Assembly: GCA_003278065.1 (NCBI GenBank)
Contig: QCHE01000008.1
Coordinates: 1 to 57,792, forward strand
Reading direction: 5' to 3'
Source of the DNA: Pelagibacteraceae bacterium AG-390-O04
Lineage (GTDB): Bacteria; Pseudomonadota; Alphaproteobacteria; Pelagibacterales; Pelagibacteraceae
DNA: 57,792 bases
Shown: positions 1 to 44,237 of the stretch, in pieces
Position numbering within the stretch: position 1 is the stretch's first letter
How the letters are laid out: the number at the start of each line of letters is the position of its first letter
Notes under the pieces: generated by a model
The model's database searches: none
What the model saw: only the letters and a program-made list of their open reading frames with translations
Told to the model about the DNA's origin: nothing
Program-made: the position numbers and the translations under genes

Positions 1-413
1 GAATTTCTTAAATTTATATTAAAAAATTTAAAAGATTTTTTTTTTGTATTATTTCTTATTAATTTTTTATTAATTTCAAAACCTAGATATTTGATATCAA
101 AAAATTTATATAAAAAAAGAGCCGGTCTTGAAAATCCACATCCCAAATCTATGAAATTAAACTTTTTAATCTTATTTTTTTTAAGATATTTTTTAAATAA
201 AACTAAAAAATAATAAGGTGTAGGCAAGTATCCAGTATTATAGACATTTTTGATCTTAGAATTTAAATAAGAAGTGTCTTTATTCTCAATTAATTTATAA
301 TCTTTGAAACCTTTAAAATAAATTAATTCGTAAAAAATTATTTTAATTGAATTTAAATAACCGTAATTACTCATGTTTTTTATAAAAAGAATTATAAAAG
401 ATAATAATTTCAT
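1..413 (-). CDS. Class I SAM-dependent methyltransferase, N-terminal part (runs off window)
   Basis: The reading frame is open to the left window edge, so only about 137 N-terminal residues are visible. A Rossmann motif I (IDLGCGFSRPALFL) begins near residue 88, followed about 15 residues later by an acidic strand (YLGFEIN), the pattern of AdoMet-binding methyltransferases. I chose the ATG at 413 because it lies 2 nt after the stop of the upstream FAD oxidase gene, which fits the tight spacing here; an internal in-frame ATG at 374 is an alternative start. Substrate unknown. The neighbouring oxidase, aminotransferase and glycosyltransferase suggest a sugar, lipid or glycan substrate (inference). 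Confidence 0.7.
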   Translation of the reverse strand, partial: MKLLSFIILFIKNMSNYGYLNSIKIIFYELIYFKGFKDYKLIENKDTSYLNSKIKNVYNTGYLPTPYYFLVLFKKYLKKNKIKKFNFIDLGCGFSRPALFLYKFFDIKYLGFEINKKLIRNNTKKKSFKFFNINLRN

Positions 414-415
414 TA

Positions 416-1711: not shown

Positions 1712-2939
1712 GAGCTTTATTTATACCCATAATTATTTTGTCTAAATGATTTTTACTAAGATAAGAAGAATTTTGAATTCTTAGGAGTTTAGGGTTATTT
1801 TTTGATGTAACTTGAAAATTATCGCTATAATTTTGAATTTCATAATTATAATCTAAGCAATTCCATACATTTTCTTCCATTGCATGAATTCCTTGTTTAA
1901 ATAAATTCTTATTAAATTTTTCAAAATTTTTTTTAATTTTGATGACAAAATATTGATAGTTCCAATCAATATCATTATCATAGTCTAATAATTCTATATT
2001 TTCCAAATTTTTTATATTCTTAATTAAATATTCAATATTTTCTTTTCTTCTTATTTTCATTTGATCTAATTTTTTAAGTTGACTTAAGCCAAATTCAATT
2101 TGGTATTTAGAAAGAGTAGATCTTTCCATCGCATCAAATTTTTTTGTTGAAATACCCATTCCAGAATAAATTATTTTTCTATAAATTCTTGGATTAAACT
2201 TATCAAGAAAGAAAAAAATTTTTGAGGTCAATATTGAATATAAAAAAGGAAAAGAATTTATAACTGAAACAATATTTTTCATGAAGAGTAAAAATTTTTT
2301 TTTAAATGAAAACTTAATATTATCTTCGGTCCATTTATTTATATATTTATTTAATTCTTTATTTGATGATATTAATATTCCCCCACTTAGAGTAGTAGGT
2401 ATTTTTATTAAACTACAACTATAAATGCCCACATCACCAAACATCCCTGTTTCAGTATTATTATAAAATGTATCAAAAGATTGTGCACAGTCTTCAATTA
2501 AAAGGATATTTCTATCCTGAGTAAATTTTTTTATTTCATCTATTTTACAAGGATATCCAAAAAGGTGTGTAACAACAATACACTTTGTATTTTTAGATAT
2601 TTTTTCCTCTAAAAGTTTATGATCAATGTTCATTGTTTTGCTGTCAACATCAACTAGTTTTATTTTAAGTTTAAGTTCAGAGGCTATTTTTAAATATAAT
2701 GGAAAGCTCATTGAGGAGAATATTATTTCATCCCCCTCTTTGAGATTTTTTTTTAGGGCTAAGTAAAATCCTAATCTTGCTGAAGGTAATAAATTAATAT
2801 ATTTATTTTTAAATCTTTCATTTAAAAATAAATTAATTTCATTTTGACTCTTTTTAAAATTTACTGGAAGAAAAAAATCTTTAATTATTTTAAAAAATTC
2901 TCTGTTATTTAAATCTATTGAAAAAAAAGGTATCGCCAT
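1695..2939 (-). CDS. DegT/DnrJ/EryC1/StrS-family PLP aminotransferase
   Basis: 414 aa. It is a PLP-dependent sugar aminotransferase-family protein. Visible motifs are LLIEDCAQSFD (PLP-contacting Asp) and, around residue 170, SCSLIKIPTTLSGGILI, in which the lysine sits at the family's Schiff-base position. This contrasts with the other DegT protein in the window (28193-29395), where that residue is His. Between about residues 205 and 250 there is an unusually hydrophobic, aromatic insert (FLLFMKNIVSVI, FPFLYSILTSKIFFFL) that could contact membrane. It would make an amino sugar for a glycan or lipid. It overlaps the FAD oxidase gene downstream and starts 7 nt after the GT2 stop, consistent with an operon. 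Sugar substrate unknown. Confidence 0.8.
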   Translation of the reverse strand: MAIPFFSIDLNNREFFKIIKDFFLPVNFKKSQNEINLFLNERFKNKYINLLPSARLGFYLALKKNLKEGDEIIFSSMSFPLYLKIASELKLKIKLVDVDSKTMNIDHKLLEEKISKNTKCIVVTHLFGYPCKIDEIKKFTQDRNILLIEDCAQSFDTFYNNTETGMFGDVGIYSCSLIKIPTTLSGGILISSNKELNKYINKWTEDNIKFSFKKKFLLFMKNIVSVINSFPFLYSILTSKIFFFLDKFNPRIYRKIIYSGMGISTKKFDAMERSTLSKYQIEFGLSQLKKLDQMKIRRKENIEYLIKNIKNLENIELLDYDNDIDWNYQYFVIKIKKNFEKFNKNLFKQGIHAMEENVWNCLDYNYEIQNYSDNFQVTSKNNPKLLRIQNSSYLSKNHLDKIIMGINKAHEYTK

Positions 2940-2946
2940 AAATAAT

Positions 2947-3627
2947 CTATTTTGATCTTAAAAAGTATTTAAAACTTTTTATTATTTCTATAAGTATATG
3001 TAATCCATCTATTAAAACATTTACTTTTTTCTGTCCTCCAAATCTTCTTCTTTCTTTCATCGGTATTTCTGTATAAGAAAAGTTATCAAATTTGACTTTT
3101 GTAGGAAGTTCTATGCATAGTTTAAAATCATTATTTTTTAAATTTAATTTTTTAAAAGAATTTACGTTACAAAGTACATAAGTAAATAAAATATCTGAAA
3201 GTTTAATTCTTAAAAAATATCGAGTGATGAATGAGAAAATCTTGTTACCGGTAAGAGTTATAATATCGTCATCATCGCTACCTGAATTTTTAGTATATCG
3301 GGTTCCAAAAACAAAATTAAAATTTTTAGAAACTTGAATTAATTCGCTAAAATATTTTGGATCAAATGAGTAATCAGCATTAAAAATACAGCCATAATCA
3401 CTATTAGCATTCTCAAACCCTTCAATTATTGCTGATCCATAACCACTTTTTTTTTGAATAATAATTTTGCAATTAAATTTTTTTGCAATTGGAATTGAAT
3501 TGTCATCTTCACTATCAACTACTAAAATTTTTTCATTAACATATGGATTATTTTCAATTTCTTTTAAGACTGCCTCCAAACTCTCTTTTTCATTTTTTGT
3601 AGGTATTATTAAAGAAATTTTATCCAT
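2947..3627 (-). CDS. Family 2 glycosyltransferase (polyprenol-phosphate sugar transferase-like)
   Basis: 226 aa. GT-A fold of family 2: N-terminal ISLIIPTKNEKESL, the nucleotide-binding ILVVDSEDDN and the metal-binding region CIFNADYSFDP, followed by a C-terminal half with ERRRFGGQKKVN. Size and layout resemble dolichol/polyprenyl-phosphate mannosyltransferase (DPM1-like) proteins without a C-terminal membrane domain. It probably transfers a sugar to a polyprenyl phosphate or lipid at the inner membrane. It is the first gene of the minus-strand glycan cluster and starts about 50 nt downstream of tRNA-Arg on the same strand. Acceptor and donor cannot be read from sequence. Confidence 0.8.
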   Translation of the reverse strand: MDKISLIIPTKNEKESLEAVLKEIENNPYVNEKILVVDSEDDNSIPIAKKFNCKIIIQKKSGYGSAIIEGFENANSDYGCIFNADYSFDPKYFSELIQVSKNFNFVFGTRYTKNSGSDDDDIITLTGNKIFSFITRYFLRIKLSDILFTYVLCNVNSFKKLNLKNNDFKLCIELPTKVKFDNFSYTEIPMKERRRFGGQKKVNVLIDGLHILIEIIKSFKYFLRSK

Positions 3628-3679
3628 AAGTAGATTTAATCATTATATTTTAAATTTTAATATATCAATCTTAATTTAT

Positions 3680-3756
3680 TGGCGCGCCTGCTAGGAGTCG
3701 AACCCAGAACCTCCTGGTCCGTAGCCAAGCGCTCTATCCAATTGAGCTACAGGCGC
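3680..3756 (-). tRNA. tRNA-Arg (anticodon ACG)
   Basis: Cloverleaf read on the minus strand: acceptor GCGCCTG/CAGGCGC, D arm GCTC...GAGC, anticodon stem CTTGG/CCAGG with loop CTACGGA (anticodon ACG, normally A34 to inosine by TadA), T arm CTGGG-TTCGACT-CCTAG. The discriminator is G and the terminal CCA is encoded in the DNA (3680-3682). It sits exactly at the edge of the polysaccharide cluster, a common integration point for variable islands. Confidence 0.95.
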
Positions 3757-3827
3757 ATTTTTTATTTTATTTAATTATAGTATGTTAATTTTTAGTGTAT
3801 TTTAATTATAAGACAAATTTAAAATTT

Positions 3828-5003
3828 ATGACTAATAAAAGTATAGAAATAGTAATTATTGATGGTGTAAGAACACCAATAGGCGCGTACAAAGGTTCTT
3901 TGAAAAATATTAAAGCTGATCAACTTGGATCTATAGTTATTAAAGAATTGTTAAAAAGAACAAAAATAAATCACGAGGAAGTAGATGAAGTAGTTATGGG
4001 ACAAGTACTGACTGCTGGGGGTGGACAAAATCCTGCAAGGCAAGCAGCAATCAATGCTGATATACCTGTCTCAAAACCAGCGCATATGGTTAACCAAGTT
4101 TGTGGATCTGGTCTGAGAGCTATTATTTCAGCATATCAATCAATTAAATTAGGTGATGTTAAAAAAGTTATATGTGGTGGCCAAGAAAATATGTCTATAG
4201 CTCCTCACTCAATATTTTTTAGAGATGAAAAGAAGATATCGGAAAAAAAATTATTAGATACAATGATCAACGATGGACTAATTGATGCATTTAATAATTA
4301 TCATATGGGAGTAACAGCAGAAAATGTTGCAAAAAAATTTGATGTATCAAGACAAGAGCAAGATAAATTTGCTTTGAATTCTCAAAAAAAAGCTGAAGCA
4401 GCATATAGTAAGAATAAATTTGATGATGAACTTATCAAAATAAATTACAAAGGAAATATTTTAGATAAAGATGAACATCCAAGACCAGGTATAAAGCTTA
4501 ATGATTTAGAAAAATTAAAAACAGTATTTCAACAGAATGGAACTGTTACACCAGGAAATTCTTCAGGTATAAATGATGGAGCTGCCGTTTTATTATTAAC
4601 TACCTTAGAAGAAGCAGAAAAAAAATCTATTAAGCCATTGGTAAAAATAGTTTCTTGGGCTTCAGTTGGAGTAGATCCAGCTTTTATGGGACTAGGACCT
4701 ATAGATGCTGTTCGTAGTGCAATTAAAAAAGCGAAATGGAATTTAGATGAAATTGATTTATTTGAAATTAATGAGGCATTTGCTGCTCAAAGTATAGCAG
4801 TAATTCGTGAATTAGGTATTGATCCAAATAAAGTTAATGTTAATGGAGGGGCAATTGCTCTTGGTCATCCTATAGGAGCTTCGGGAGCAAGAATATTAGT
4901 CACTTTGATACATGAAATGAAAAGACAAAATAAAAACAAAGGTTGTGCAACACTCTGCATAGGTGGTGGAATGGGCATAGCGATATGTATTGAGAAAATT
5001 TAG
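3828..5003 (+). CDS. Acetyl-CoA acetyltransferase (thiolase II)
   Basis: 391 aa from the ATG at 3828, the usual length of AtoB/PhaA thiolases. It condenses or cleaves acetoacetyl-CoA. Catalytic residues are visible: nucleophilic Cys in NQVCGSGLRAI (about residue 92), His in GHPIGASGARI (about 350) and the second Cys in CIGGGMGIA (about 380). A GTG at 3795 is in frame, but the extra residues do not belong to the family and a TATAAG box (3807-3812) lies between the two starts, so I prefer 3828. No CoA-transferase, PhaB or PhaC gene is adjacent, so degradative versus biosynthetic use is open. The product call is firm; the choice between atoB and phaA is not. Confidence 0.93.
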   Translation: MTNKSIEIVIIDGVRTPIGAYKGSLKNIKADQLGSIVIKELLKRTKINHEEVDEVVMGQVLTAGGGQNPARQAAINADIPVSKPAHMVNQVCGSGLRAIISAYQSIKLGDVKKVICGGQENMSIAPHSIFFRDEKKISEKKLLDTMINDGLIDAFNNYHMGVTAENVAKKFDVSRQEQDKFALNSQKKAEAAYSKNKFDDELIKINYKGNILDKDEHPRPGIKLNDLEKLKTVFQQNGTVTPGNSSGINDGAAVLLLTTLEEAEKKSIKPLVKIVSWASVGVDPAFMGLGPIDAVRSAIKKAKWNLDEIDLFEINEAFAAQSIAVIRELGIDPNKVNVNGGAIALGHPIGASGARILVTLIHEMKRQNKNKGCATLCIGGGMGIAICIEKI

Positions 5004-25856: not shown

Positions 25857-27665
25857 ATGAGCACAATTGATAATATAAGAAACTTTGCAATTATTGCGCA
25901 TATTGATCATGGTAAGTCAACGATAGCAGACAGAATTATACATAAATGTGGTGGTTTAACTGAGCGGGAAATGAAAGCACAAGTTCTTGATTCAATGGAT
26001 ATTGAGAGAGAACGAGGTATAACTATCAAGGCACAAACTGTAAAATTAAATTATAAAGCAAAAAATGGAAAAGATTATATATTAAATATAATTGACACAC
26101 CTGGTCATGTAGATTTTAGTTATGAAGTGAGTAGATCTCTTTACGCTTGTGAAGGTTCTATTCTAATTGTCGATAGCACTCAAGGAGTAGAAGCTCAAAC
26201 TTTAGCAAATGTATATCAGGCTTTAGATATTAATCATGAAATAATTCCTGTGTTAAATAAAATTGATTTACCTGCTTCTGATTTAGATAGAACTAAAAAA
26301 CAAATTGAAGATGTAATTGGTATAGATACGAATAAAGCAGTGCCGTGTTCTGGAAAAACAGGTGAAGGGATAAATGAAATTTTGGAACAAATAATTGACC
26401 AATTGCCAGGGCCCAAGGGAAATTCAAAAGACGATTTGAAATGTTTATTAGTCGATAGTTGGTACGACACATATCTTGGAGTAGTAATTTTAGTAAGAGT
26501 AATAAATGGTAAAATAACAAAAAATATGAAAATTAAAATGCTTTCAACTAATCAAGATTATGTTGTTGAGAAAGTTGGAGTATTTACTCCTAAGGCAAAA
26601 GATATTGATGAATTAAATACCGGCGAAATTGGTTTTATAACAACAGGTATTAAAATTTTGTCAGAAACAAAAGTTGGAGATACTATTTGTGATTCTTCCA
26701 AGGCTTCTGTTAAGCCATTACCTGGCTTTAAACCAAGTAAACCTGTTGTATTTTGTGGACTATTTCCAGTAGATAGTTCTGAGTATCAAAAATTAAAAGA
26801 TGGACTTGCAAAATTGCAATTAAATGATGCAAGTTTTTCATTTGAACCAGAGTCTTCTTCAGCTTTGGGACTTGGTTTTAGATGTGGATTTTTAGGCCTT
26901 CTTCATCTTGAAATTATTACTGAACGATTAGAGAGAGAATTTGATGTAAATCTACTAACTACAACCCCTGGAGTTGTTTACAAGGTAAACTTAAATAAAG
27001 GAAATGTTATTGATTTACAAAATCCATCAAGTTTGCCTGATCCAACATTAATAAAATCAATTGAAGAACCTTGGATAAAATCAACCATCATAACTCCTGA
27101 CGAATATCTTGGCTCAATAATAAAATTATGCCAAGATAAAAGAGGAATTCAAATAAACTTAACATATTCAGGTAATAGAGCAGTTTTAACTTATGAGCTT
27201 CCTTTAAATGAAGTTGTATTTGATTTTAATGACAGAATAAAATCAATGACAAGCGGCTATGCAAGTTTTGATTATGAAATAATTGAGCACAGAGAAGGAG
27301 ATCTTGTTAAATTAGGCATATTAGTCAATGGGGAGCCTGTTGATGCTTTAGCAATGATGATTCATAAAAATTTTGCTCAGAGAACAGGTAGAGAAGTTTG
27401 TGAAAAATTAAAAGATCTAATACCAAGACATAATTTTATGATACCAGTGCAAGCTGCTATTGGCGGTAAAATTATTGCAAGAGAAACAATTAAAGGATTT
27501 AAAAAGGATGTATTAACAAAAATTCATGGTGGTGGTGCCACTGACAGAAAAAGAAAACTTTTAGAAAAACAAAAAAAAGGTAAAGCAAGATCTAAACAGT
27601 TTGGTAGAGTAGAAATTCCTCAAGAAGCTTTCATAGGCGTTTTAAAAATAAAAAAAGAACTTTGA
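25857..27665 (+). CDS. lepA: Elongation factor 4 (LepA GTPase)
   Basis: 602 aa, standard length. G1 [14 protein letters not shown], switch [15 protein letters not shown]4 NKIDLPASD and the LepA-specific C-terminal domain ending [19 protein letters not shown]. It is a ribosome-bound GTPase that remodels stalled or back-translocated ribosomes. It is the last gene of the plus-strand translation block, and only 6 nt separate its stop from the convergent rmlC-like gene, leaving no room for a terminator. Confidence 0.97.
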
Positions 27666-27671
27666 AAAGAT

Positions 27672-28196
27672 TTATTTATTTTTAAAATTTCTAAAAGAAA
27701 TATTATTTTTATCTTTTTTTGATAAAATATTTATTTTTTTATTTGGCCATTTGATTTTCAAGTCTTTATCATTCCAAATTAAGCCACTCTCATATTTTGG
27801 ATATCTATCTTCTGAACATGCATATAACATTATGCTATTATCTTTAAGAGATTTAAATCCATGTGCAAAGCCCACAGGAATAAATATCGACATATTTTTA
27901 CGTGAGTCTAAAACAATAGAAAATGATTTACCGAAAGTCTTGGAATTTTTTCTAAGATCAACTACAACATCAAAGATTTTACCACTTAAAACCGAAATAA
28001 ATTTCGCCTGAGGTTTTTTTATTTGAAAATGTAAACCTCGGATAACGTTTTTTCTTGAAAGTGAAACGAATTCAAATTTAAAATTTTTATTTATTTTTTT
28101 TTTGTTGAATAATTCTTTAAGATAACCTCTGGAGTCAATATTAATTTTATCTTCAAATATTTTGAGACCATTTAATTTTGTTTTAATGATTTTCAC
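27672..28196 (-). CDS. rmlC: dTDP-4-keto-6-deoxy-sugar 3,5- (or 5-) epimerase, RmlC family
   Basis: 174 aa cupin. It keeps the family core: VIRGLHFQIKKPQAKF with the catalytic His, FIPVGFAHGFKSL, Tyr in MLYACSEDRYP and ESGLIWNDKDLKIKWP. RmlC converts dTDP-4-keto-6-deoxyglucose to the L-rhamno form; homologues such as AscE only invert C5 of a 3,6-dideoxy intermediate. With the dehydratase-like gene next to it (ATGA overlap at 28193-28196) a 5-epimerase role is quite possible. It is the last gene of the five-gene nucleotide-sugar operon. The symbol is by family; the exact reaction is uncertain. Confidence 0.85.
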   Translation of the reverse strand: MKIIKTKLNGLKIFEDKINIDSRGYLKELFNKKKINKNFKFEFVSLSRKNVIRGLHFQIKKPQAKFISVLSGKIFDVVVDLRKNSKTFGKSFSIVLDSRKNMSIFIPVGFAHGFKSLKDNSIMLYACSEDRYPKYESGLIWNDKDLKIKWPNKKINILSKKDKNNISFRNFKNK

Positions 28197-29395
28197 TTGA
28201 ATTTATTTAAGAATTTAATAACTATTTTTTTTATATAATTTAAGTCTTTAATTTCTAAACCTTGGTGGCAACCAAGTAAAACTCCCCTGACCATTATTTC
28301 GGTAGAATTTTCCTCTGCTTTTGGATGTTTTTTATAACTTTGTTTTTTCATTATAGGTTGTTTTAAAATATTACCTGTAAAAATTGTTCTAGTTTGAATA
28401 TTATTTTTTTCCAAAAAAATTTGAAAATCAGTTCTATCAAAAAATGAGTTTTTTTTAATAAGTAATGGAAAGGCCAGCCAACCTGTTTGAATATTCTTTT
28501 GCAATTTTGGTACTTCAAAATAATCTTTAAAACCCTCAAAAAAGGATAACAAATATTGGAAATTTTTTTTTCTGATTTTCAGATTTAAATTTAATTTCTT
28601 TAATTGTTCTAGTGCAAATGCTGCAGAAATTTCAGAAGGTAAAAAATTGTATCCAAAATCTTCAAATATATATTTACTATCATATTTAATGCCGTGGATT
28701 TTTTTTTTAAATCTTTTTTTTAAACTTTCATCTTCATTAAAAAGTGCTGAACTTCTTCCCCATCCTCTTAGAAGTTTTGCCCTTAGATATTTTTTTTTGT
28801 CATTAAAACATACAATACCACCAAAACCAGCACCACTTACAACATGCGAAGCATAAAAACTATTTGTAACTATGTCAGATAAATTTCCAGTATTAGAGCC
28901 ATTGATTTTGTAACCAATTGTATCTGCAGAGTCTTCAATTGAAATTAAATTATATTTATCTGCTATCCGTTTAATTTTAATCCAATTAGCAATATTTCCA
29001 ATTAAATTTGGTATTAATATTACTTTTGTATTTTTATTAATTTGCCTTTCAATTTGATCTACGTTGGCAACAAAAGTATCTTTATTTACATCTATAAAAT
29101 TTGGTTTTAACCCACTTTGATATATTGGTGAAATCGTTGTTGAAAATGTTAGTGAAGGAGTAATTATTTCACTTTCTTTTTTTAATTGAAGTGATTGAAT
29201 TGCAAGTAGATTTGCAGAAGAACCAGAATTTACCATTAGTGCATATTTTTTCCCGAATAATTTTGCAATTTTTTTTTCAAGTTTACGAACATTTTTCCCA
29301 TCCATTAAACTTAAACTTTGTTTCTTTAAAACATTTAAACTAGCATTTATTTCTTTAGAATTATAATTAGCCATTCCATAATATATTTTTTTCAT
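28193..29395 (-). CDS. DegT-fold sugar 3-dehydratase-like enzyme (RfbH/ColD type, His replaces PLP Lys)
   Basis: 400 aa of the DegT/DnrJ superfamily. The PLP site reads NSFYASHVVSGAGFGG; the residue that is the Schiff-base Lys in aminotransferases is His, as in DdhC/RfbH and ColD, enzymes that remove the C3 hydroxyl of 4-keto-6-deoxy sugars instead of aminating. Further RfbH-like segments are LLRGWGRSS and DFGYNFLPSEISAAFALEQL. The CxC...C...C motif that binds [2Fe-2S] in RfbH/AscC after the WGR motif is missing (here SSALFNEDES), and length is closer to ColD. Flanked by RmlC- and RfbJ-like genes with 4-nt and 2-nt junctions. Predicted product: a 4-keto-3,6-dideoxy nucleotide sugar (inference). 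Confidence 0.75.
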   Translation of the reverse strand: MKKIYYGMANYNSKEINASLNVLKKQSLSLMDGKNVRKLEKKIAKLFGKKYALMVNSGSSANLLAIQSLQLKKESEIITPSLTFSTTISPIYQSGLKPNFIDVNKDTFVANVDQIERQINKNTKVILIPNLIGNIANWIKIKRIADKYNLISIEDSADTIGYKINGSNTGNLSDIVTNSFYASHVVSGAGFGGIVCFNDKKKYLRAKLLRGWGRSSALFNEDESLKKRFKKKIHGIKYDSKYIFEDFGYNFLPSEISAAFALEQLKKLNLNLKIRKKNFQYLLSFFEGFKDYFEVPKLQKNIQTGWLAFPLLIKKNSFFDRTDFQIFLEKNNIQTRTIFTGNILKQPIMKKQSYKKHPKAEENSTEIMVRGVLLGCHQGLEIKDLNYIKKIVIKFLNKFK

Positions 29396-29397
29396 AT

Positions 29398-30225
29398 CTA
29401 TCTTTTTATATATTCAATAATATTATTGATTTTACTATTATCTAATTTTAAACCAGGCAATAATTTGATATTTGGTATTTTAGTATTTATAGATTTTTTA
29501 CTCTTATATTTAAACTTTATTTTTTTTTTATTAATAGAATTAAATTGTGCAAATATTTTGTGAATTAAAAAATTTTTATTATTCATCATTAAGTAATTTC
29601 CAGGTTTTATTTGACTTTTTTTTATTAGAATATTTACTGAATTGAGTAAATCCTCAATGTTTAAAAAGTTTAATTTCAAGTTTTTACTAACTATTTTAAT
29701 CGTTTGATTTTCCTTATATTTTCTTTTTATTGTTGGAAGAATTTTTTTTCTATTATCTCCTTTACCAAATGTGTCTGATAGATAGATATTATAAAATTTT
29801 ATTTGAATATGTCTTCTTTTATAAAATTCTATTAGCTCTGAAAAAAATTTTTTGGAATAAGAATATAAATTTTTATTTTGCAATTCCCATATTGATGTAA
29901 AATTAATAAATTTTTTAATACCTATGTTTTTTGACATTTCTAAAATTATATTTCCTAGTAAAATATTTGCCTCATTTATATTTTTTATATCATCAAGTTT
30001 ATGTTTTTTAACATAATGAGTTGCACAATGAATTACGATTCTTGCCTTTATCTTCTTAAGCTTTAAAATTAATTCATCAAAGTTTTTATAATTAATAACT
30101 TTAACAAATTTTGAATTTTTAATTTTTTTTCTTCTTGTAACTACTATAATTTTTTTATCTTTATAGAAATTTAAAATATTTTTTCCTATAAAACCTGAGG
30201 CTCCCGTAATAATAATATTATCCAT
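29398..30225 (-). CDS. NAD(P)-dependent sugar reductase/epimerase, SDR family, RfbJ-like
   Basis: 275 aa extended-SDR protein. The Rossmann motif IIITGASGFIGKNIL is at residues 4-18; catalytic YSYSKKF (YxxxK, Tyr near 142) is preceded by FINFTSIWE with the serine. The region IYLSDTFGKGDNRKKILPTI resembles CDP-abequose/paratose synthases (RfbJ), which reduce the 4-keto group of 3,6-dideoxy sugars. It is shorter than 4,6-dehydratases, consistent with a reductase. It overlaps rmlA by 8 nt and is spaced 2 nt from the dehydratase-like gene. Final 4-keto reduction in this pathway is its likely job; stereochemistry unknown. Confidence 0.7.
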   Translation of the reverse strand: MDNIIITGASGFIGKNILNFYKDKKIIVVTRRKKIKNSKFVKVINYKNFDELILKLKKIKARIVIHCATHYVKKHKLDDIKNINEANILLGNIILEMSKNIGIKKFINFTSIWELQNKNLYSYSKKFFSELIEFYKRRHIQIKFYNIYLSDTFGKGDNRKKILPTIKRKYKENQTIKIVSKNLKLNFLNIEDLLNSVNILIKKSQIKPGNYLMMNNKNFLIHKIFAQFNSINKKKIKFKYKSKKSINTKIPNIKLLPGLKLDNSKINNIIEYIKR

Positions 30226-31090
30226 GATTAATCAATTTTTTTAAATAATTTGAATACATTGAATTGCCATAAAAATTGATCCTTTTGATTATGTTTTTTT
30301 TATTTATCCATTTATTAATTAAACCTATTTCTTCAATACATCCAATTTTAAGTCCCTGTCTATTTTCTATAGTTGATATAAATTCTGAGGTTGACAGAAG
30401 ATTTTCTGGAGAGCCTGTATCTAGCCAGGCACTTCCTCTTCCCATAAGTGAGAAATAAAGCTTATTTTTTTTATTATATATTTTTAATAAATCGACAATT
30501 TCCAACTCTTTTCTTTTTGAGGGTTTGAGTTTAGTTACGTATTTAATTACATTATTATCAAAAAAATACAGCCCAGTAATTGCATAGCTGGATATATTTT
30601 TTTTGGATTTTTCTATGATATTTTTAATCTTATTGTTCTTAATTTCTGCAGTGCCGTAATCTTCTGGATTTTTTACTTTATATAGAAATATTTTAGCTCC
30701 ACTTTTTAATTTTTTTTCATCTTGTAATTTTTTTGTAAAACCCTGACCATAAAAGAAATTATCTCCTAAAATTAAAGCAATATTCTGATTATTAATAAAT
30801 TTTTTTCCTATAATAAAGGCATCAGGAATACCACTAGGTTTTTCCTGAATAGCATATGAAATTTTAAGCCCAATATCTTTACCCGAACCAAATAATTCCT
30901 TGTAAAGTTTCAAATCATCTCTGTTAGTAATTAAAAGAACATCTTTTATTTTTGCAAGCATAAGTACAGACAAGGAATAAAATATCATAGGCTTATCATA
31001 TAAAGGTAAAAGTTGTTTATTTATAGATTTTGTAATTGGACTTAATCTACTCCCAGTTCCACCTGCTAATATAATTCCTTTTTTAATCAT
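30218..31090 (-). CDS. rmlA: Glucose-1-phosphate thymidylyltransferase
   Basis: 290 aa, standard for RmlA/RfbA. The nucleotidyltransferase signature KGIILAGGTGSRLSPIT is at residues 3-19, followed by INKQLLPLYDKPMIFYSL, a strong match to the dTTP-using RmlA and unlike the CTP-using RfbF/AscA. ILGDNFFYGQGF and GSAWLDTGSPENLL are also conserved. It makes dTDP-glucose from dTTP and glucose-1-phosphate. Second gene of the minus-strand cluster, 18 nt after rmlB. Confidence 0.93.
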   Translation of the reverse strand: MIKKGIILAGGTGSRLSPITKSINKQLLPLYDKPMIFYSLSVLMLAKIKDVLLITNRDDLKLYKELFGSGKDIGLKISYAIQEKPSGIPDAFIIGKKFINNQNIALILGDNFFYGQGFTKKLQDEKKLKSGAKIFLYKVKNPEDYGTAEIKNNKIKNIIEKSKKNISSYAITGLYFFDNNVIKYVTKLKPSKRKELEIVDLLKIYNKKNKLYFSLMGRGSAWLDTGSPENLLSTSEFISTIENRQGLKIGCIEEIGLINKWINKKNIIKRINFYGNSMYSNYLKKLINHG

Positions 31091-31108
31091 ATATTTTTAT
31101 AACAATAA

Positions 31109-32092
31109 TTATTGATTTTCTTTTATATAGCTAAAATTTTCTTTATACCATTTTACTGTTTGAATTAGGGATTTTTCAAAATTTTGTTTTGGTAATTTTC
31201 TTAAGGTTTTGGAGATTTTTTTTGAATTTAAGGAATATCTAAAATCATGACCAGGCCTATCATTAATAAAAATAATTTTTGATTTTGTTTCTCTTTTTAA
31301 TTTATTTTTGAAAATACTTAAAATTTTTTTAACAATAAATAAATTATTATAAACAAATCCTGATCCAATATTGTAAGTTTGGCCTAATTTACCACGATAC
31401 AAAACTTCGTACAAAATTTTGCAATGATCTTTAACATAAATCCATTCTCTTTCATTCTTTCCAGTCCCATAAATTGGAATATCTTTATCTTTAAAAATAT
31501 TAATTATAGTTTTTGGAATTAATTTTTCAGAATTTTGTTTTGGACCAAAGTTATTAACACAATTAGTTATAATAATTGGTAAATTATAAGTTCGAATATA
31601 TGATTTTAAAATTAAATCAGATGCTGCTTTACTTGAAGAATACGGTGAACTTGGATTATAGGCATCTGTCTCCAAAGATTTTTTTCCCTTTTTAATATCA
31701 CCAAAAACTTCATCTGTAGAAATTTGTATGAACTTAAAATTATGCTTCAAATTTTTTTTTCTAAGAATTTCTAAAATATTAATAACTCCAAGAATATTGG
31801 ATTTAACAAATGATTTTGGATTTTTAATTGATCGATCAACATGAGTTTCAGCGGCAAGATTATAAATTGCCTCTGGATTAAATTTATCAATACATTTACT
31901 TAGCAAATAGCGATTACAAATATCAAATTTTTTTATTATCAAATTTTTATTTTTATCTAAATTTTTGATATTTGAGCCTATGCTCATTCTATCAATGACT
32001 ATAACATTAAATTTTTTTTTCAAAAAAAATTCAACCAAATTTGATCCGATAAACCCCAAACCTCCTGTAATGATTATATTTTTTTTCTTCAT
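31109..32092 (-). CDS. rmlB: dTDP-glucose 4,6-dehydratase
   Basis: 327 aa. NAD-binding ITGGLGFIGSNLVEF, YNLAAETHVDRSIKNPKSF, catalytic STDEVFGD and SSPYSSSKAASDL (YxxxK), and C-terminal NDRPGHDFRYSLNSKKI are all RmlB hallmarks. It converts dTDP-glucose to dTDP-4-keto-6-deoxyglucose. First gene of the operon; its start is only 29 nt from the divergent GT2 start, with a symmetric -10 element in between. Slightly shorter than the 350-360 aa norm, the C-terminus being trimmed. Confidence 0.92.
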   Translation of the reverse strand: MKKKNIIITGGLGFIGSNLVEFFLKKKFNVIVIDRMSIGSNIKNLDKNKNLIIKKFDICNRYLLSKCIDKFNPEAIYNLAAETHVDRSIKNPKSFVKSNILGVINILEILRKKNLKHNFKFIQISTDEVFGDIKKGKKSLETDAYNPSSPYSSSKAASDLILKSYIRTYNLPIIITNCVNNFGPKQNSEKLIPKTIINIFKDKDIPIYGTGKNEREWIYVKDHCKILYEVLYRGKLGQTYNIGSGFVYNNLFIVKKILSIFKNKLKRETKSKIIFINDRPGHDFRYSLNSKKISKTLRKLPKQNFEKSLIQTVKWYKENFSYIKENQ

Positions 32093-32107
32093 TTAAAAAA
32101 ATTAAAT

Positions 32108-32115
32108 ATTATAAT
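32108..32115. promoter_or_regulatory. Symmetric -10 element between rmlB and GT2
   Basis: ATTATAAT contains TATAAT on the plus strand (32110-32115) and on the minus strand (32113-32108). It sits in the 29-nt gap between divergent rmlB and the GT2 gene. The plus-strand transcript would start at or just before the GTG at 32122, i.e. leaderless. Motif-based only. Confidence 0.4.
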
Positions 32116-32121
32116 ATATTT

Positions 32122-32955
32122 GTGATTAATAGTATTACCGTTGTTATTGTAACTTATAAAAGTGAAAATAACATTTTTAAATGTTTAAAATCAATTAATA
32201 AATTTAATAATATCTATATACTAGAAAATTCAAACGATTTGAATTTCAAAAAAAAAATAAATAAAAAGTTTCCAAAAATTAAGGTTTTTTTATCCAAAAA
32301 AAATAATGGTTATGGGGCTGGCTATAATGAGCTACTTCGAAAAGTTAAAACTAAATATGCATTGATTATTTCTCCAGATACTTATTTTTCAAAAAAAAAA
32401 TTAAATATGTTTTTAAATTCAATTAATAAAGTTAAAGTAAATTTTACTCTTATGGGGCCAGAAGCCCAAAATAAAAAATATCAAATAGAAAACAAAAATT
32501 GGTATAATAAAACAAAATCTATTTTAGGATTTAGTTTTTTAATAAATCTTAACAATTTAAAAAATAAAAAGATTTTTGATCAAAATATTTTTTTGTATCT
32601 AGAAGATATAGATTTATGTAAAAGGTTATTAAAACTTAATCATACCTTAATAACAAATAAATACTTTATAATTAATCACAAAGGTGCTAAGTCTTCTTAT
32701 TTAGGAAAAGGGATTTTTAATAAAATTAGAAATTGGCATTGGATGTGGTCTCAATTTTATTTTTCAAAAAAACATTATGGTATTTTGATATCTTTAGTAA
32801 AATTTGTTCCTAAATTATTATTAACATTTTTTAAATTTGTTATCTTATATTTATTAAATAAAAAAAATGCTGATATTTATAAATTTAGAATCAGAGGTTT
32901 ATATGCATCAATAATGAATAAGAGCTCTTTTTTGCGACCTAATGATTTGATTTAA
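32122..32955 (+). CDS. Family 2 glycosyltransferase (rhamnosyltransferase-like)
   Basis: 277 aa with a GTG start (no ATG upstream in frame). GT2 features: ITVVIVTYKSENNI opening, KNNGYGAGYNELL, LIISPDTYF as the DxD-like site, and FLYLEDIDLCKRLLK, which matches the C-terminal region of rhamnosyltransferase-like GT2s. A C-terminal hydrophobic helix (LLLTFFKFVILYLL) suggests membrane association. Divergent from the dTDP-sugar operon, it is the obvious candidate to transfer the sugar made there (inference from neighbourhood). tRNA-Ser follows by 31 nt. Confidence 0.85.
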   Translation: MINSITVVIVTYKSENNIFKCLKSINKFNNIYILENSNDLNFKKKINKKFPKIKVFLSKKNNGYGAGYNELLRKVKTKYALIISPDTYFSKKKLNMFLNSINKVKVNFTLMGPEAQNKKYQIENKNWYNKTKSILGFSFLINLNNLKNKKIFDQNIFLYLEDIDLCKRLLKLNHTLITNKYFIINHKGAKSSYLGKGIFNKIRNWHWMWSQFYFSKKHYGILISLVKFVPKLLLTFFKFVILYLLNKKNADIYKFRIRGLYASIMNKSSFLRPNDLI

Positions 32956-32986
32956 ATGTTTTTTAAAAATTTATAATTTTTTAAAA

Positions 32987-33076
32987 GGAGAGGTGGCCGA
33001 GTGGTTGAAGGCGCATGCTTGGAAAGCGTGTAAAGAGGAAACTCTTTCATGGGTTCGAATCCCATTCTCTCCGCCA
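32987..33076 (+). tRNA. tRNA-Ser (anticodon GGA)
   Basis: 90 nt type II tRNA. Acceptor GGAGAGG/TCTCTCC, anticodon stem CATGC/GCGTG with loop TTGGAAA (anticodon GGA), long variable arm (AAGAGGAAACTCTT hairpin), T arm TGGG-TTCGAAT-CCCA, discriminator G, encoded CCA. It borders the nucleotide-sugar cluster on its right side. Confidence 0.96.
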
Positions 33077-33140
33077 TTAAATTAACCTTATATTTTAATG
33101 CTAATTTAACAGTTTAAATTAAGTATTAGGATTAAAAAAA

Positions 33141-35250
<2,110 letters not shown>

Positions 35251-39847: not shown

Positions 39848-40108
39848 ATGAATATAAATGATTTAATTGCAATCGTAAAAAAAAGAATATTAGAAAATTT
39901 TGAAATTCAAAATATTCATATCGAAGATAAATCTTTTCTTCATAAGAATCATAAAGGCAATCAAGAAGGAAGGTTTCATTTAAAATTAAAGATAGAATCT
40001 AAAGAATTAAAGATTTTAAATAAAATAGATAGTAATAAGAAAATATATAAAATCTTAGATAATGAATTAAAAAAATATATACATTCTATTCAAATTTTAA
40101 TTAGCTAA
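39848..40108 (+). CDS. BolA/IbaG family protein
   Basis: 86 aa from the ATG at 39848; an in-frame start at 39725 would add 41 non-family residues and run through the J-protein gene, so I reject it. Opening MNINDLIAIVKKRILENF and the central NHKGNQEGRFHLKLKI correspond to the BolA helix and the class-II loop region (usually S.HH....ESHF). It works with monothiol glutaredoxins in Fe-S handling or as a regulator. Some loop residues diverge: the usual Cys or His is HKNHKGNQEG here. The stop overlaps the convergent aroB end by 12 nt. Confidence 0.75.
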   Translation: MNINDLIAIVKKRILENFEIQNIHIEDKSFLHKNHKGNQEGRFHLKLKIESKELKILNKIDSNKKIYKILDNELKKYIHSIQILIS

Positions 40109-41206
40109 TTCCTCTTGTTTAAGGAATTTTTTAACACTTTTAACCTCATATTGATTATCAATTAAAGTAGAACCAATTTTTTTTAATAAGATAAGATTAA
40201 TTTTATTGGATATATTTTTTTTATCTTTTAACATAAAAAAAACGATTTTATTTAAATTTTTAATTGTAAAATAATTTTTTAATTTTAAATTAGAATTAAC
40301 TTTATCAATATGTCTAATTATTAATTGGTGTTCACTTTTTTTCATAATTTTTTTATTTAAACTAAATTTAAGTGCTGAGATAATGCCTAATATTACAGCT
40401 TCACCATGATTTAATTTTTTTGAATATCCAAGAGATGCCTCATATGCATGTGCAAATGTATGACCAAAATTCAAAATTTTTCTATCACCTTTCTCTTTTT
40501 CATCCTTTTCAATAACGTTTTTTTTTATTTTACAACTTGTAAATATTGCACTTTCGATAAATGGAGATTTTAATTCTAATATTTTGACAATGTTATTGTT
40601 TAAAAAACAAAAAAATTTTTTATTCATAATTAATGAATGTTTTAAAATTTCAGCATAACCACATATTATTTCTCGAAGAGGAAGTGTTTTTAAAAATTCA
40701 CTATCAGTAAAAACAATTGTTGGTTGGTAAAAGCTTCCAATAAGGTTTTTACCTTGTTTAGTATTAATACCTGTCTTCCCCCCAATGGAAGAGTCTACTT
40801 GCGATAACAGAGTTGTTGGTATGTTGATGAATTTAAGTCCTCTCTTATATAAGCTTGCAGCAAATCCACCAACATCTCCGGCGATTCCTCCACCGATAGT
40901 TATTAGGCAATCTTGCCTTGAAAAGTTTTTTTTAAACAATACGTCTAAAATTTTATTAATACTAATTTGATTTTTATTTTTTTCACTTGATTTAAAAAAA
41001 TATTTAGTAATCTTTTTATTTTTCAATGATTTTATAATCTTTAAAACCATTTTATTTGGAACTTTTTTATCAATTACCAAAAGGCACTTATTAAAATTAA
41101 TTGAATTTTTTTTTAAATATTCTGGAAGTTTTTCAATTATTTTAGAACCAATTATTATTGGATATGTGCCTGATTTAGTATTAACTATTAATCTATTTGG
41201 TCTCAT
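40097..41206 (-). CDS. aroB: 3-dehydroquinate synthase
   Basis: 369 aa from the internal ATG at 41206 (MRPNRLIVNTKSGTYPI); an upstream ATG at 41230 adds 8 residues and deepens the overlap with aroK. NAD-binding TIGGGIAGDVGGFAASLYKRG, FINIPTTLLSQVDSSIGGKTGIN, and the metal ligands in HSLIMNK, NFGHTFAHAYEA and LNHGEAVILG are all present. It converts DAHP to 3-dehydroquinate, the second shikimate-pathway step. It overlaps aroK, and the pair is transcribed together as in many proteobacteria. Confidence 0.95.
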   Translation of the reverse strand: MRPNRLIVNTKSGTYPIIIGSKIIEKLPEYLKKNSINFNKCLLVIDKKVPNKMVLKIIKSLKNKKITKYFFKSSEKNKNQISINKILDVLFKKNFSRQDCLITIGGGIAGDVGGFAASLYKRGLKFINIPTTLLSQVDSSIGGKTGINTKQGKNLIGSFYQPTIVFTDSEFLKTLPLREIICGYAEILKHSLIMNKKFFCFLNNNIVKILELKSPFIESAIFTSCKIKKNVIEKDEKEKGDRKILNFGHTFAHAYEASLGYSKKLNHGEAVILGIISALKFSLNKKIMKKSEHQLIIRHIDKVNSNLKLKNYFTIKNLNKIVFFMLKDKKNISNKINLILLKKIGSTLIDNQYEVKSVKKFLKQEELAN

Positions 41207-41705
41207 AAATTTCCAATATTTTTTTTGCAATCATATTTTTTGTAAGATTTTTACAATCAATTTTATACATCGCTTTTGAATAAACAGTAGAACGTTTTTT
41301 AATCAGGTTTTTTAACTCATTTTTTGAAGCTTTAAAAGCAATAGGTCTTTTTTGACTATTTTTTATTCTTCTGATTAACGTTTCAGTATCCCAATTTAAC
41401 CAAAATGAAATATGATTATCTAAAATTTCTTTTTTAATTTTATAATTTAAAAAAGCACCTCCTCCAATTGATATTACTGATTTATGTTTTTTTAAACTTT
41501 TGATTGTCAATATTTCTTCAATTTTTCTAAAGTATTTTTCACCTTTTTTTTCGAAAATATTTGAAATTTTCATTCCCATTTCTTTCTCTATTTCATAGTC
41601 AACATCAATAAAATTTCTTTTCAATTTCTTTGATATAATTAAGCCTATAGAAGACTTACCTGAACCCATCATACCTAAAAAAACTAAATTTTCTTTTGAT
41701 TCCAT
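41193..41705 (-). CDS. aroK: Shikimate kinase
   Basis: 170 aa. P-loop GMMGSGKSSIGLIISKKL (about residues 11-28), shikimate-binding DVDYEIEKEMG with the Asp pair, SIGGGAFLNYKI, and lid motif KNSQKRPIAF. It phosphorylates shikimate at O3. First gene of the aroK-aroB unit; the downstream aroB start lies within its last codons. Divergent from the 59-aa membrane protein with a 57-nt gap. Confidence 0.94.
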   Translation of the reverse strand: MESKENLVFLGMMGSGKSSIGLIISKKLKRNFIDVDYEIEKEMGMKISNIFEKKGEKYFRKIEEILTIKSLKKHKSVISIGGGAFLNYKIKKEILDNHISFWLNWDTETLIRRIKNSQKRPIAFKASKNELKNLIKKRSTVYSKAMYKIDCKNLTKNMIAKKILEIYETK

Positions 41706-41762
41706 AAGTTTCTATATTGAAAAATCACAAATATGTCTTAATTTGATTTTATCCAACGTTAT

Positions 41763-41942
41763 ATGCAATTTACAAAAAAAACAAGTTCAAGTAGAAATGT
41801 CCTAAGTATATCTATAAAATTAGGCTTAGGCATATCTTTAATACTTGGAATAATTTTTCTTTTAAACAAAATAGATTTTCCTGCACCAAAAAAAGAAATA
41901 GAAAAAATTATATCTAATGAAAATTTTAAAATTGTTAAATAA
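41763..41942 (+). CDS. Small single-span membrane protein (59 aa), unknown function
   Basis: ATG at 41763 to TAA at 41942, 59 aa: a basic Ser/Thr-rich N-terminus (MQFTKKTSSSRN), one hydrophobic helix (IKLGLGISLILGIIFLL, about residues 18-34), then a charged tail with PAPKKEIEKIIS. The topology suggests N-in with the tail in the periplasm. Its last 26 nt overlap the start of the exported 590-aa protein in another frame, arguing that both are translated and coupled. I recognise no named family; the minus-strand frame over the same bases is a shadow. Confidence 0.65.
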   Translation: MQFTKKTSSSRNVLSISIKLGLGISLILGIIFLLNKIDFPAPKKEIEKIISNENFKIVK

Positions 41943-43689
41943 AAAAAGTTTATCAATTATTTTTGTTATTTTTTTTTATGCAACATTTGTTCAAGCAGAA
42001 GAAAAACCTGTTGATATATGGAATATAGATAAAGATAAAATAGAGCAATCAGCAGATAAAGTTATTTTATCATCAGAAACTGAAGATAATGATGAAAATA
42101 AAGAATCTAGTATCTATGAAATGCAAACTCAAAAAAAAAATAGTGTTGAAATAGATCCCTCATTGTTATCAAAGAAAGTAAAAATTATAGGTCTTTATGA
42201 TCCAGCAGATAATGGATTATCAATTGATATGTGGTCTAATTCAAATGGTGATCAGCTAAAATATTTATTTTCAAACTTAAAAAAATTAAATTTATCAGAT
42301 GATGCATCAGAATTAATGAATATTGTTTTGTTAACCAATTCATATTATCCAAAAAAAAATATTACAGAAGAAGACTTTCTAAAAATCAAATCTGATTGGC
42401 TTGTAAAAAATAAAAATCGATCACTTATAGAGGAATATCTTATTAAAAATCAAATTTTAGATTTAAATCCAAAACTGACAAGATATTTAATTGATGAATA
42501 TCTTTCAGAATCAAATTTAATAAAAGCATGTGAGATTTTTTCTAAAAATACAAGTGTAATAACAAATGAATACTTATCAAAATTTAATTTATATTGTTTA
42601 ATTAATGATGGAAAAAAAGATGAAGCCCAATTAATTTTTGACTTAAAAAAGGAACTTGGATTTAAAGATGAGTATTTTGAAAAAAAAATAAATTATTTAT
42701 TTGGATACACAGATGAACCTGAATTGCTTATTTCAGAAAAAAGTATTTTAGATTTTCATTTAGCCCATAGAACTAATCCAGATTTTATTTTTGAGCCAAA
42801 AAAAGATACTCAAAAGTTAATTTGGAGATATTTATCAACATCAAATTTACTTTATAAAACAGAAGAAATAGATATTACGGAATTAGATAAAATATCTATT
42901 ATTGAAAAAGCTACAAATGATAAAAATTATTCAGAGGACGATTTGTTCACTTTATATAAGAGATTTCAATTTAATATAAATCAATTGTTAAATGCTACTG
43001 CATCTTATAAAATATTACCCGATGTTGAGGCTAGAGCATTAATTTACCAAAAAATCTTGTTAGAGTCTGACAATGAAAAAAAATTAGAGTTAATTAAAAT
43101 TTTAAAAGATCTTTTTATAAAAGAAAATTTGTCCGGAGCATTTGAGAATCATCTTAAGAAATTTTTAAAACAAATGAAACCGGAGGAAATTCCATCAAAT
43201 TATACCTCTTTTTATTCAACATATATTAAAGATGATGAAAAAAAATCAAATAAAAATATTAAATATAATAAAGAAATATTACATCAATCAAAGTTAGTTA
43301 GTTATTTTAATGGAGATTTTGCAAATTCAAAAATTGAAAAAGATTTAAATAACTTTTTGAAAAAAATTAAAAAAAATAAAAAATACTTTATTTCTAAAAA
43401 AGACATAATTTTAATTGAGTCATTAAAATCTGATGGAATAAAAATTTCTAAAAAATATGATGATCTATATGAAATAAATGACTCTGAAATACCCACGGAT
43501 ATCCAAGTGATGATAAATAATAACGAAATTGGAGCGACTATTTTGAGAATTATAGAGGTAATCGGTGAGGATAAATTAGAAGATCTAGATGAAGACACTT
43601 TATATTTTATCATTAGTGCTCTTAACCAATTAAACATCGACTACATTAGAAACAATATTTTATTAAAAGTTCTTCCTTTAAAAGTTTAA
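41917..43689 (+). CDS. Exported 590-aa protein of unknown function
   Basis: Begins with a clear signal peptide (basic MKILKLLNKK, hydrophobic LSIIFVIFFYATFV, cleavage likely after VQA near residue 27), so it acts in the periplasm. After an acidic low-complexity stretch (residues ~45-80) comes SKKVKIIGLYDPADNGLSID and then a long, mostly helical region with leucine-rich, TPR/alpha-solenoid-like spacing; no catalytic motif is visible and cysteines are rare (only two after the signal). I do not recognise the family. It overlaps the 59-aa membrane protein gene and is 23 nt upstream of def, so it may be transcribed with def-fmt-truA. Confidence 0.7.
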   Translation: MKILKLLNKKSLSIIFVIFFYATFVQAEEKPVDIWNIDKDKIEQSADKVILSSETEDNDENKESSIYEMQTQKKNSVEIDPSLLSKKVKIIGLYDPADNGLSIDMWSNSNGDQLKYLFSNLKKLNLSDDASELMNIVLLTNSYYPKKNITEEDFLKIKSDWLVKNKNRSLIEEYLIKNQILDLNPKLTRYLIDEYLSESNLIKACEIFSKNTSVITNEYLSKFNLYCLINDGKKDEAQLIFDLKKELGFKDEYFEKKINYLFGYTDEPELLISEKSILDFHLAHRTNPDFIFEPKKDTQKLIWRYLSTSNLLYKTEEIDITELDKISIIEKATNDKNYSEDDLFTLYKRFQFNINQLLNATASYKILPDVEARALIYQKILLESDNEKKLELIKILKDLFIKENLSGAFENHLKKFLKQMKPEEIPSNYTSFYSTYIKDDEKKSNKNIKYNKEILHQSKLVSYFNGDFANSKIEKDLNNFLKKIKKNKKYFISKKDIILIESLKSDGIKISKKYDDLYEINDSEIPTDIQVMINNNEIGATILRIIEVIGEDKLEDLDEDTLYFIISALNQLNIDYIRNNILLKVLPLKV

Positions 43690-43712
43690 AAATTAGTTTA
43701 TCTATTGTACTT

Positions 43713-44237
43713 ATGAGCATTAAAGATATCATTACAGTACCTGATGAGACATTAAAAAAAATTTCAGAGCCTATTGAAAAAGTTGGAATTAATGAGAAAA
43801 AACTTATTAATGACTTATTTGATACAATGTATAACTCTAAAGGTATTGGTCTTGCTGCAGTGCAAGTAGGAATTCTTAAAAGAATTTTAGTCATTGATGT
43901 ATCTACAAAAGATGAAAAAAAAAAACCTTTAAGTTTTATTAATCCTATTATTAAAAAGTTAAGTGATGAAACCTCAATTTATGAAGAAGGATGTTTATCA
44001 ATTCCTGAAACCTTTATAGAAATTGAAAGACCAAAAATCTGTGAAGTGGATTATATTGATATAGATGGAAAAAAAAGATATCTAAAGTGTGATGGTCTTT
44101 TATCAACTTGTCTACAGCATGAAATAAATCATTTAGATGGAAAATTAATAATTGACCATTTATCAAAACTAAAAAGAGATATAATTATTAAAAAAATTTC
44201 AAAATCAAAAAAAAATCCTGATAGAATATTGGTTTAA
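43713..44237 (+). CDS. def: Peptide deformylase
   Basis: 174 aa. All three metalloprotease motifs are present: GIGLAAVQVG (motif 1), EEGCLSIPE (motif 2, metal-binding Cys) and QHEINHLDGKL (motif 3, HExxH). It removes the N-formyl group from nascent proteins. It lies 2 nt before fmt, whose enzyme adds the formyl group to Met-tRNA, the classical def-fmt pair. Confidence 0.96.
   Translation: MSIKDIITVPDETLKKISEPIEKVGINEKKLINDLFDTMYNSKGIGLAAVQVGILKRILVIDVSTKDEKKKPLSFINPIIKKLSDETSIYEEGCLSIPETFIEIERPKICEVDYIDIDGKKRYLKCDGLLSTCLQHEINHLDGKLIIDHLSKLKRDIIIKKISKSKKNPDRILV

Follow-up and report, generated by a model that had tools for sequence, protein, structure and literature searches.

3,6-Dideoxyhexoses are known chiefly from enteric O-antigens. 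Their synthesis combines a dehydrase with reduction and/or epimerization, and three 3-dehydratases are described as well characterized: E1, which acts on a cytidine diphosphate (CDP) sugar, ColD on a guanosine diphosphate (GDP) sugar, and SpnQ on a deoxythymidine diphosphate (dTDP)-linked 2,6-dideoxy sugar (PMC8987622). E1 and SpnQ possess an iron–sulfur (Fe-S) site and a reductase partner, which for E1 is E3; ColD has no Fe-S site, its intermediate being hydrolysed and its pyridoxamine 5′-phosphate (PMP) restored with glutamate (PMC8987622). The window analysed here is an entire contig of 57,792 nucleotides (QCHE01000008.1; G000:C8) from a Pelagibacterales (SAR11) genome (1.06 Mb, 31 contigs, 88.6% complete). 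It carries five adjacent minus-strand genes in the order rmlB, rmlA, a short-chain dehydrogenase/reductase (SDR) gene, a DegT-fold dehydrase gene and an RmlC-family epimerase gene. The gene families, their order and conservation, the active-site residues, the lack of Fe-S ligands and the absence of a detectable E3 domain suggest that the cluster probably makes a dTDP-linked 3,6-dideoxyhexose. An L-series sugar is the likeliest product, either ascarylose (3-deoxy-L-rhamnose) or its C4 epimer.

The proposed order of chemical steps equals that of the CDP-ascarylose pathway (AscA–F), of which only E1/AscC was compared by sequence. The CDP-glucose synthase and 4,6-dehydratase of that pathway are replaced in the window by RmlA and RmlB types, the 5-epimerase is matched by an RmlC that keeps the catalytic His and Tyr, and the proposed counterpart of the 4-ketoreductase AscF is the SDR, which has some likeness to CDP-abequose synthase; the carrier, however, would be dTDP, AscD is missing and the dehydrase is of another clade. 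The RmlABCD route to dTDP-L-rhamnose has RmlA, RmlB, RmlC and a reductase in common with the window, where a dehydrase is inserted and the reductase lies outside the RmlD family. The spinosyn enzyme SpnQ, likened here by its description, is a 3-dehydratase of the aminotransferase fold family that acts on a dTDP sugar, but it has an Fe-S motif and a 2,6-dideoxy substrate (PMC8987622). The ColD pathway runs through the GDP-mannose route, unlike the dTDP gene set of the window. Colitose synthesis is not known to involve an RmlC-type epimerase.

In the proposed pathway, RmlA would form dTDP-glucose and RmlB dTDP-4-keto-6-deoxyglucose, from which the dehydrase, using PMP and a catalytic His184, would remove the C3 hydroxyl. 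As described for ColD, the enamine would then be freed and hydrolysed, and glutamate or another amino donor would restore PMP; this release is proposed because a [2Fe-2S] site is lacking from the dehydrase and the genome search revealed no E3 partner. RmlC would invert C5, the SDR would reduce the C4 ketone, and a divergent family 2 glycosyltransferase (GT2) would place the sugar into a surface glycan. Since C5 would be the meaningful centre left in a 3-deoxy intermediate, the product would be expected to belong to the L series.

Open reading frame coordinates and family scores confirm the gene order, strand and tight packing reported by the first-pass annotation. RmlB and RmlA are separated by 18 bp, RmlA and the SDR overlap by 8 bp, the SDR and DegT genes are 2 bp apart, and DegT and RmlC overlap by 4 bp, a spacing that suggests a single transcript. 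The strict same-strand order rmlB-rmlA-SDR-DegT-RmlC recurs in 23 of the 80 Pelagibacterales loci of the main set (the best 80 of 296 confirmed stretches, all from Pelagibacteraceae, Pelagibacterales or Pelagibacter) and in 7 of the 86 loci of a second set, from genomes picked for dehydrase or RmlC matches. When identical dehydrases are joined, the strict-order loci comprise 24 distinct dehydrase sequences, that of the window excluded. The order is not due to chance. The nearest relative, AG-430-J07 (L132), has a dehydrase 92% identical to that of the window and lepA on the same side. Because the ratios of nonsynonymous to synonymous substitution (dN/dS) against this relative are about 0.06–0.15 (RmlC 0.081, DegT 0.059, SDR 0.146, RmlA 0.092 and RmlB 0.104; lepA 0.030), the five genes are under purifying selection.

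The best-scoring family for the dehydrase is RfbH (NF011936, 285.8 bits, under the cut-off of 423), and its matches among PDB sequences include E1 at 207.8 bits and ColD at 173 bits; identity to Salmonella RfbH is 33%. With the E1/AscC/RfbH enzymes of Yersinia and Salmonella, which use CDP sugars and work with E3, it shares the fold, the Asp and Tyr of E1 positions 194 and 217, a His in place of the lysine that binds pyridoxal 5′-phosphate (PLP) and, presumably, removal of the C3 hydroxyl. It differs from them in its length (400 versus 437 residues), in having dTDP rather than CDP neighbours, and in lacking the Fe-S cysteines. The description of the protein as a His-type DegT enzyme is borne out, as His184 aligns with E1 H220 and with ColD position 188. 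Asp, Tyr and His occupy E1 positions 194, 217 and 220 in all 110 distinct SAR11 dehydrases of the subfamily (135 rows when duplicates are counted). None of the 110 has a cysteine at the counterparts of E1 Cys193, 251, 253 and 261, which we take to be the [2Fe-2S] ligands: position 251 is always Ser, position 193 is Ala in 109 and Ser in one, and the window enzyme has Ala157, Ser216, Leu218 and Leu225. The Fe-S site of E1 is described as comprising four cysteines (PMC8987622), and all four are kept in 15 E1-type relatives from a class-wide search of 318 genomes (loci L236 and L238, without a usable match, were excluded from the residue comparison). The dehydrases of Roseibium, Leisingera and Ensifer plasmids are Fe-S-free too and have the identical Asp, Tyr and His, while L218, within the Fe-S-free clade, is odd in having Cys at position 193 and no Tyr217.

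In a dehydrase tree of 79 rows, built by a quick method with a midpoint root and containing some long branches, the Fe-S-free clade (54 rows) and the E1-type clade (16 rows) each have an SH-aLRT support of 100 and are joined at 96, and the ColD types fall outside. The tree thus places the window dehydrase in a clade sister to E1/RfbH. ColD resembles it in having His for Lys, no Fe-S site and, as described, no reductase partner (PMC8987622), but belongs to a separate clade and has Glu at E1 position 194. The best structural match of the AlphaFold model is also E1 (3bb8, Z-score of 45.9 and root mean square deviation of 2.3 over 367 aligned residues; a second E1 entry scores 45.8).

The DegT fold would also suit a transaminase that tolerates the loss of the lysine and yields a dTDP-4-amino-sugar. 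Weaker PseC, LegC and WecE family matches are present in all 28 subfamily members scanned, true aminotransferases follow closely behind E1 in the fold comparison, and SpnQ is reported to transaminate when its reductase is absent (PMC8987622). E1 and ColD, however, are reported to have shown no transamination under similar conditions, and E1 H220K is described as 'noncatalytic' (PMC8987622). The His at the PLP-lysine position throughout the subfamily, the best match to RfbH, and a placement next to E1 in both the fold comparison and the tree (which has no lysine aminotransferases among its rows) all argue against this alternative. Clustering with true aminotransferases was seen neither by sequence nor by fold, and we regard transamination as distinctly improbable.

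The first-pass annotation gave a family match for every step except AscD, but AscD is not necessarily a gap, because the dehydrase has no Fe-S cysteines and no E3-type domain was found in any of 11 dehydrase-bearing genomes, most of them incomplete. The probe, PF00970, gives 74 bits with the Salmonella E3 reductase and matches 8 of 14 control genomes; it finds nothing in the genome of the window, in G067 (99% complete), in G062 (99%) or in G083 (97%). Nor does it match any of the eight subfamily-bearing genomes (G000, G018, G025, G028, G032, G033, G056 and G057) among 61 relatives, where the sole match (G050, 27.3 bits, cut-off 21.1) is in a genome with no subfamily-level dehydrase. To judge from the tree, a dehydrase from a different clade than AscC/E1 accounts for the 'missing AscD', and by analogy with ColD a reductase-free release would be expected.

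Neighbouring genes point to dTDP as the carrier. The window RmlA scores just under the thymidylyl TIGR01207 cut-off and far above cytidylyl TIGR02623 (350.2 versus 27.7 bits), in agreement with its assignment as the thymidylyl type. Clade A, defined as dehydrases at least 55% identical to that of the window, holds 91 of 111 distinct sequences (one of the 111 incomplete); RmlA or RmlB lies within 4.6 kb (the distance used throughout) of 41 of the 91, and RfbF/RfbG lies this close to none. The 20 distinct dehydrases outside clade A divide into 13 with RfbF/RfbG, 2 with RmlA/RmlB and 5 with neither. In two CDP-side neighbour pairs assigned by family, the RfbG types are above cut-off and the RfbF types score 228 and 240 bits, under the cut-off of 300. 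The Roseibium and Leisingera plasmids have an rfbF-rfbG-DegT arrangement, around which an incomplete gene table shows no E3 over approximately 7–8 kb. CDP and dTDP contexts are separated by one change on the tree (33 rows with context). These relatives beside CDP-glucose genes, only one change away, support the substrate class independently, and the clade of the window appears to be the dTDP side of the dehydrase subfamily. Counting its CDP-side members, the subfamily is matched at E 1e-75 or better in 54 of 397 Pelagibacterales genomes. A separate observation on the CDP side is that 7 of the 20 distinct dehydrases (L037, 7434–12093, L038, L039, L086, L091, L095 and L099) have a gene for the N-terminal part of a transketolase within this distance; in L037 a split transketolase was confirmed by family. 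Such genes may point to branched-chain 3,6-dideoxy sugars.

The window SDR reaches no NCBIfam cut-off and scores 15 bits with RmlD TIGR01214 (cut-off 224). Its model, with a pLDDT of 91.8, has the extended-SDR fold, and a fold search returned many epimerases and dehydratases at Z-scores of 24–26, mostly tied, with no particular reductase standing out. Against a panel of 11 SDRs, its profile ranked three SAR11 SDRs first and then CDP-abequose synthase (66.7 bits; RmlB 35.7 bits), with a short RmlD-like enzyme and Salmonella RfbG unreported. Against the PDB the profile found 50 chains, headed by a putative 4,6-dehydratase (63.3 bits), and a sequence search with the SDR itself (P0003) gave no match at E 0.001.

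Neither an RmlD above cut-off nor the short RmlD-like enzyme (E 1e-15) was found in the window genome, and the latter was not found in any of the seven five-gene genomes searched; G062 does have it, but at its dehydrase locus there is no five-gene set. Dehydrase, RmlA, RmlB and RmlC occur together in 33 distinct clade-A loci, which comprise 24 with the SDR, 6 with the RmlD-like enzyme, none with both and 3 with neither, and two of these three (L081 and L084) hold a related SDR of 36–37% identity. We infer that the SDR and the short RmlD-like enzyme are alternative 4-ketoreductases. Curated RmlD is above cut-off in 5 of the 397 genomes, and RmlC-family genes occur in 196. The short RmlD-like protein (approximately 234 residues, PF04321 98 bits) lies beside or near RmlC at L109 6522–7226 and in its relatives, and curated RmlD is rare in the Pelagibacterales genomes where it occurs.

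Three of the four rhamnose enzymes are present in the window, and dehydrase-free GT2-rmlB-rmlA-rmlC sets occur in SAR11 (for example, L101, L102 and L109). The product could on this basis be plain dTDP-L-rhamnose, with the SDR acting as RmlD and the dehydrase serving another sugar. The very low RmlD score of the SDR, the distribution of the two reductase types over the 33 loci, and the SDR genes that adjoin a dehydrase even without rmlAB nearby (for example, L070, L083 and L172) make this very unlikely. No RmlD-family reductase was seen by sequence or fold. With the dehydrase on the 3-dehydrase side and RmlD not found over cut-off, the gene set is best read as one for a dTDP-carried 3,6-dideoxyhexose, as had been proposed.

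The assignment to the L series depends on the epimerase. The window RmlC keeps the base His56 and the acid Tyr125; the catalytic acid of the family is reported as Tyr132 in the Mycobacterium tuberculosis (Mtb) enzyme and Tyr134 in StrM (PMC9095892, PMC3639364). The reading of a Tyr-to-Arg change as loss of this acid was rejected, as the numbering puts the change at StrM Tyr140, a TDP contact, with Tyr125 intact. The acid is Phe in 3 of the 41 RmlC sequences beside a subfamily dehydrase (L136, L147 and L151), in each case the dehydrase-adjacent copy of a locus with two RmlC genes. In related epimerases, Tyr mutants are reported to retain some activity (PMC7949155), so that residues alone cannot settle the activity of RmlC.

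A D-series product of the dTDP-abequose or dTDP-paratose type would result if the SDR reduced dTDP-4-keto-3,6-dideoxyglucose directly and RmlC served another product or acted before the dehydrase. Synthesis of abequose and paratose is not known to need an epimerase. The preference of the SDR profile for CDP-abequose synthase over RmlB fits this proposal, as do four distinct loci with SDR and dehydrase in which RmlC is not nearby, and six in which dehydrase and RmlC are coupled with the short RmlD-like enzyme and not with the SDR. Against it, RmlC accompanies 24 of the 25 distinct loci with RmlA, RmlB, SDR and dehydrase, the remaining one being cut by the contig end; the window RmlC retains both catalytic residues; and the RmlD-like enzyme that could give RmlC a separate job was not found in any of the seven five-gene genomes searched. 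We consider the D series unlikely and prefer the L-series dTDP-3,6-dideoxyhexose.

Several observations weigh against this preferred assignment. For the dehydrase, E1 Phe345 is replaced by Leu in all 110 SAR11 members, the fold comparison ranks the best aminotransferase (Z-score of 43.5) above ColD (41.6), and the model has a pLDDT of 34–37 over residues 212–251, the segment that aligns with three of the four E1 Fe-S ligands (251, 253 and 261, corresponding to 216, 218 and 225). For the carrier, 50 of the 91 clade-A dehydrases have no RmlA or RmlB nearby and only 18 of these are contig-cut, so the dTDP link is not universal; the partner genes of the 32 sequences that have neither gene set and are not contig-cut may lie elsewhere in the genome. 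The four SDR–dehydrase loci without a nearby RmlC lack RmlA and RmlB as well. In RmlC, StrM Tyr140 is replaced by Arg (Arg131 in the window) in all 41 dehydrase-adjacent sequences, a change also found in 34 of 50 other RmlC (75 of 91 distinct Pelagibacterales sequences in total), and at the site of Mtb Phe26 the window enzyme and 18 of the 41 have Leu; with two TDP-side contacts altered, nucleotide use by the window enzyme is not certain. For the reductase, the earlier label 'RfbJ-like' holds moderately on the small SDR panel, and the likeness to abequose synthase is weak: hhalign does not separate the abequose synthase RfbJ (6e-11) from RmlB (1.4e-10), and three other SDRs beat abequose synthase on E-value in plasmids. 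RmlD-family matches, weak and below cut-off, occur in G077 and in G130, the latter a five-gene genome, and G399 has another weak one.

The interpretation given by the first-pass annotation was right in outline and is partly supported by this comparison, which covered E1, ColD and the Salmonella rfb genes. A wider proposal, to which we give slightly less than even weight, is that surface-ocean SAR11 hold a class of E1-lineage 3-dehydrases that work without Fe-S site or reductase and have shifted from CDP to dTDP, and that a dTDP-L-ascarylose-like surface-sugar precursor is widespread among them. If true, a relative of E1 would act on a dTDP-6-deoxy sugar by chemistry like that of ColD, a combination relevant to the kinship of the Fe-S and reductase-free routes. 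SAR11 surface glycans would also gain a 3,6-dideoxyhexose, and sugars of this class may play a part there in recognition by phages. A phage search returned 53 records, with at most 32% identity among the 15 of the 53 matches listed. No paper on a 3,6-dideoxyhexose of SAR11 or on a dTDP-linked one was among those listed by literature searches, although some queries were weak ('ColD' mostly matched 'cold' and the comma in '3,6' was lost).

Table 1 Features of the dideoxysugar locus and its borders, in window coordinates.
Feature	Coordinates	Strand	Length and basis
RmlB-type dTDP-glucose 4,6-dehydratase	31109..32092	-	327 aa; TIGR01181 372.0 bits (cut-off 365.1)
RmlA-type glucose-1-phosphate thymidylyltransferase	30218..31090	-	290 aa; TIGR01207 350.2 bits (cut-off 360.65)
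Extended SDR, proposed 4-ketoreductase	29398..30225	-	275 aa; PF01370 66.6 bits
Putative Fe-S-free E1/RfbH-like nucleotide-sugar 3-dehydrase, DegT fold, His184	28193..29395	-	400 aa; PF01041 242 bits
RmlC-family epimerase, proposed C5 epimerase	27672..28196	-	174 aa; TIGR01221 177 bits (cut-off 155.75)
Divergent GT2-family glycosyltransferase, putatively acting on the sugar	32122..32955	+	PF00535 44.7 bits
lepA, left border of the variable site	25857..27665	+	named by eye from the sequence and by similarity across loci
gyrB, right border of the variable site	33190..35250	+	named by eye from the sequence

The cluster and the adjoining GT2 gene lie between lepA and gyrB (Table 1), and a GT2 relative is present within 4.6 kb in 13 of the 24 distinct five-gene loci. 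Comparison of 15 loci (reaching 1.5 kb past gyrB or to the contig end) reveals that lepA directly or almost adjoins gyrB in L252, L254 and L255, and that various genes lie in between in other relatives; the lepA–gyrB junction (window 25857–35250; L246–L259) is a small variable cassette site. Sixteen of the 91 distinct clade-A dehydrases have lepA or gyrB no more than 4.6 kb away. Hypervariable region 2 (HVR2), a larger surface region, is described between the 5S and 23S genes, and the terms lepA and gyrB have no match in that paper (PMC2217521). G+C content is 22.5–24.1% in the 2-kb bins of 28001–34000 and 27.1–33.6% in those of 4001–28000, but this low value is not peculiar to the cluster, because equally low bins occur at 1–4000 and 40001–44000. 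Promoter-like and terminator-like sites show no excess over shuffled sequence.

Further DegT proteins occur in the same genome. At the contig edge, on the minus strand, window 416–2939 includes a 431-residue frame without a Pfam match and, at 1695–2939, another DegT protein in which the lysine motif was recognized by eye. L275 (G000:C6, 846–6986, minus strand) is an open frame of 2046 residues with a DegT domain at residues 11–326 and no Pfam match at E 0.001 in the remainder. L031 (G000:C16, 10154–12171) encodes a second His-type, ColD-like DegT protein of 402 residues, SFYYSHQITSGEGG, with an SDR gene behind it.

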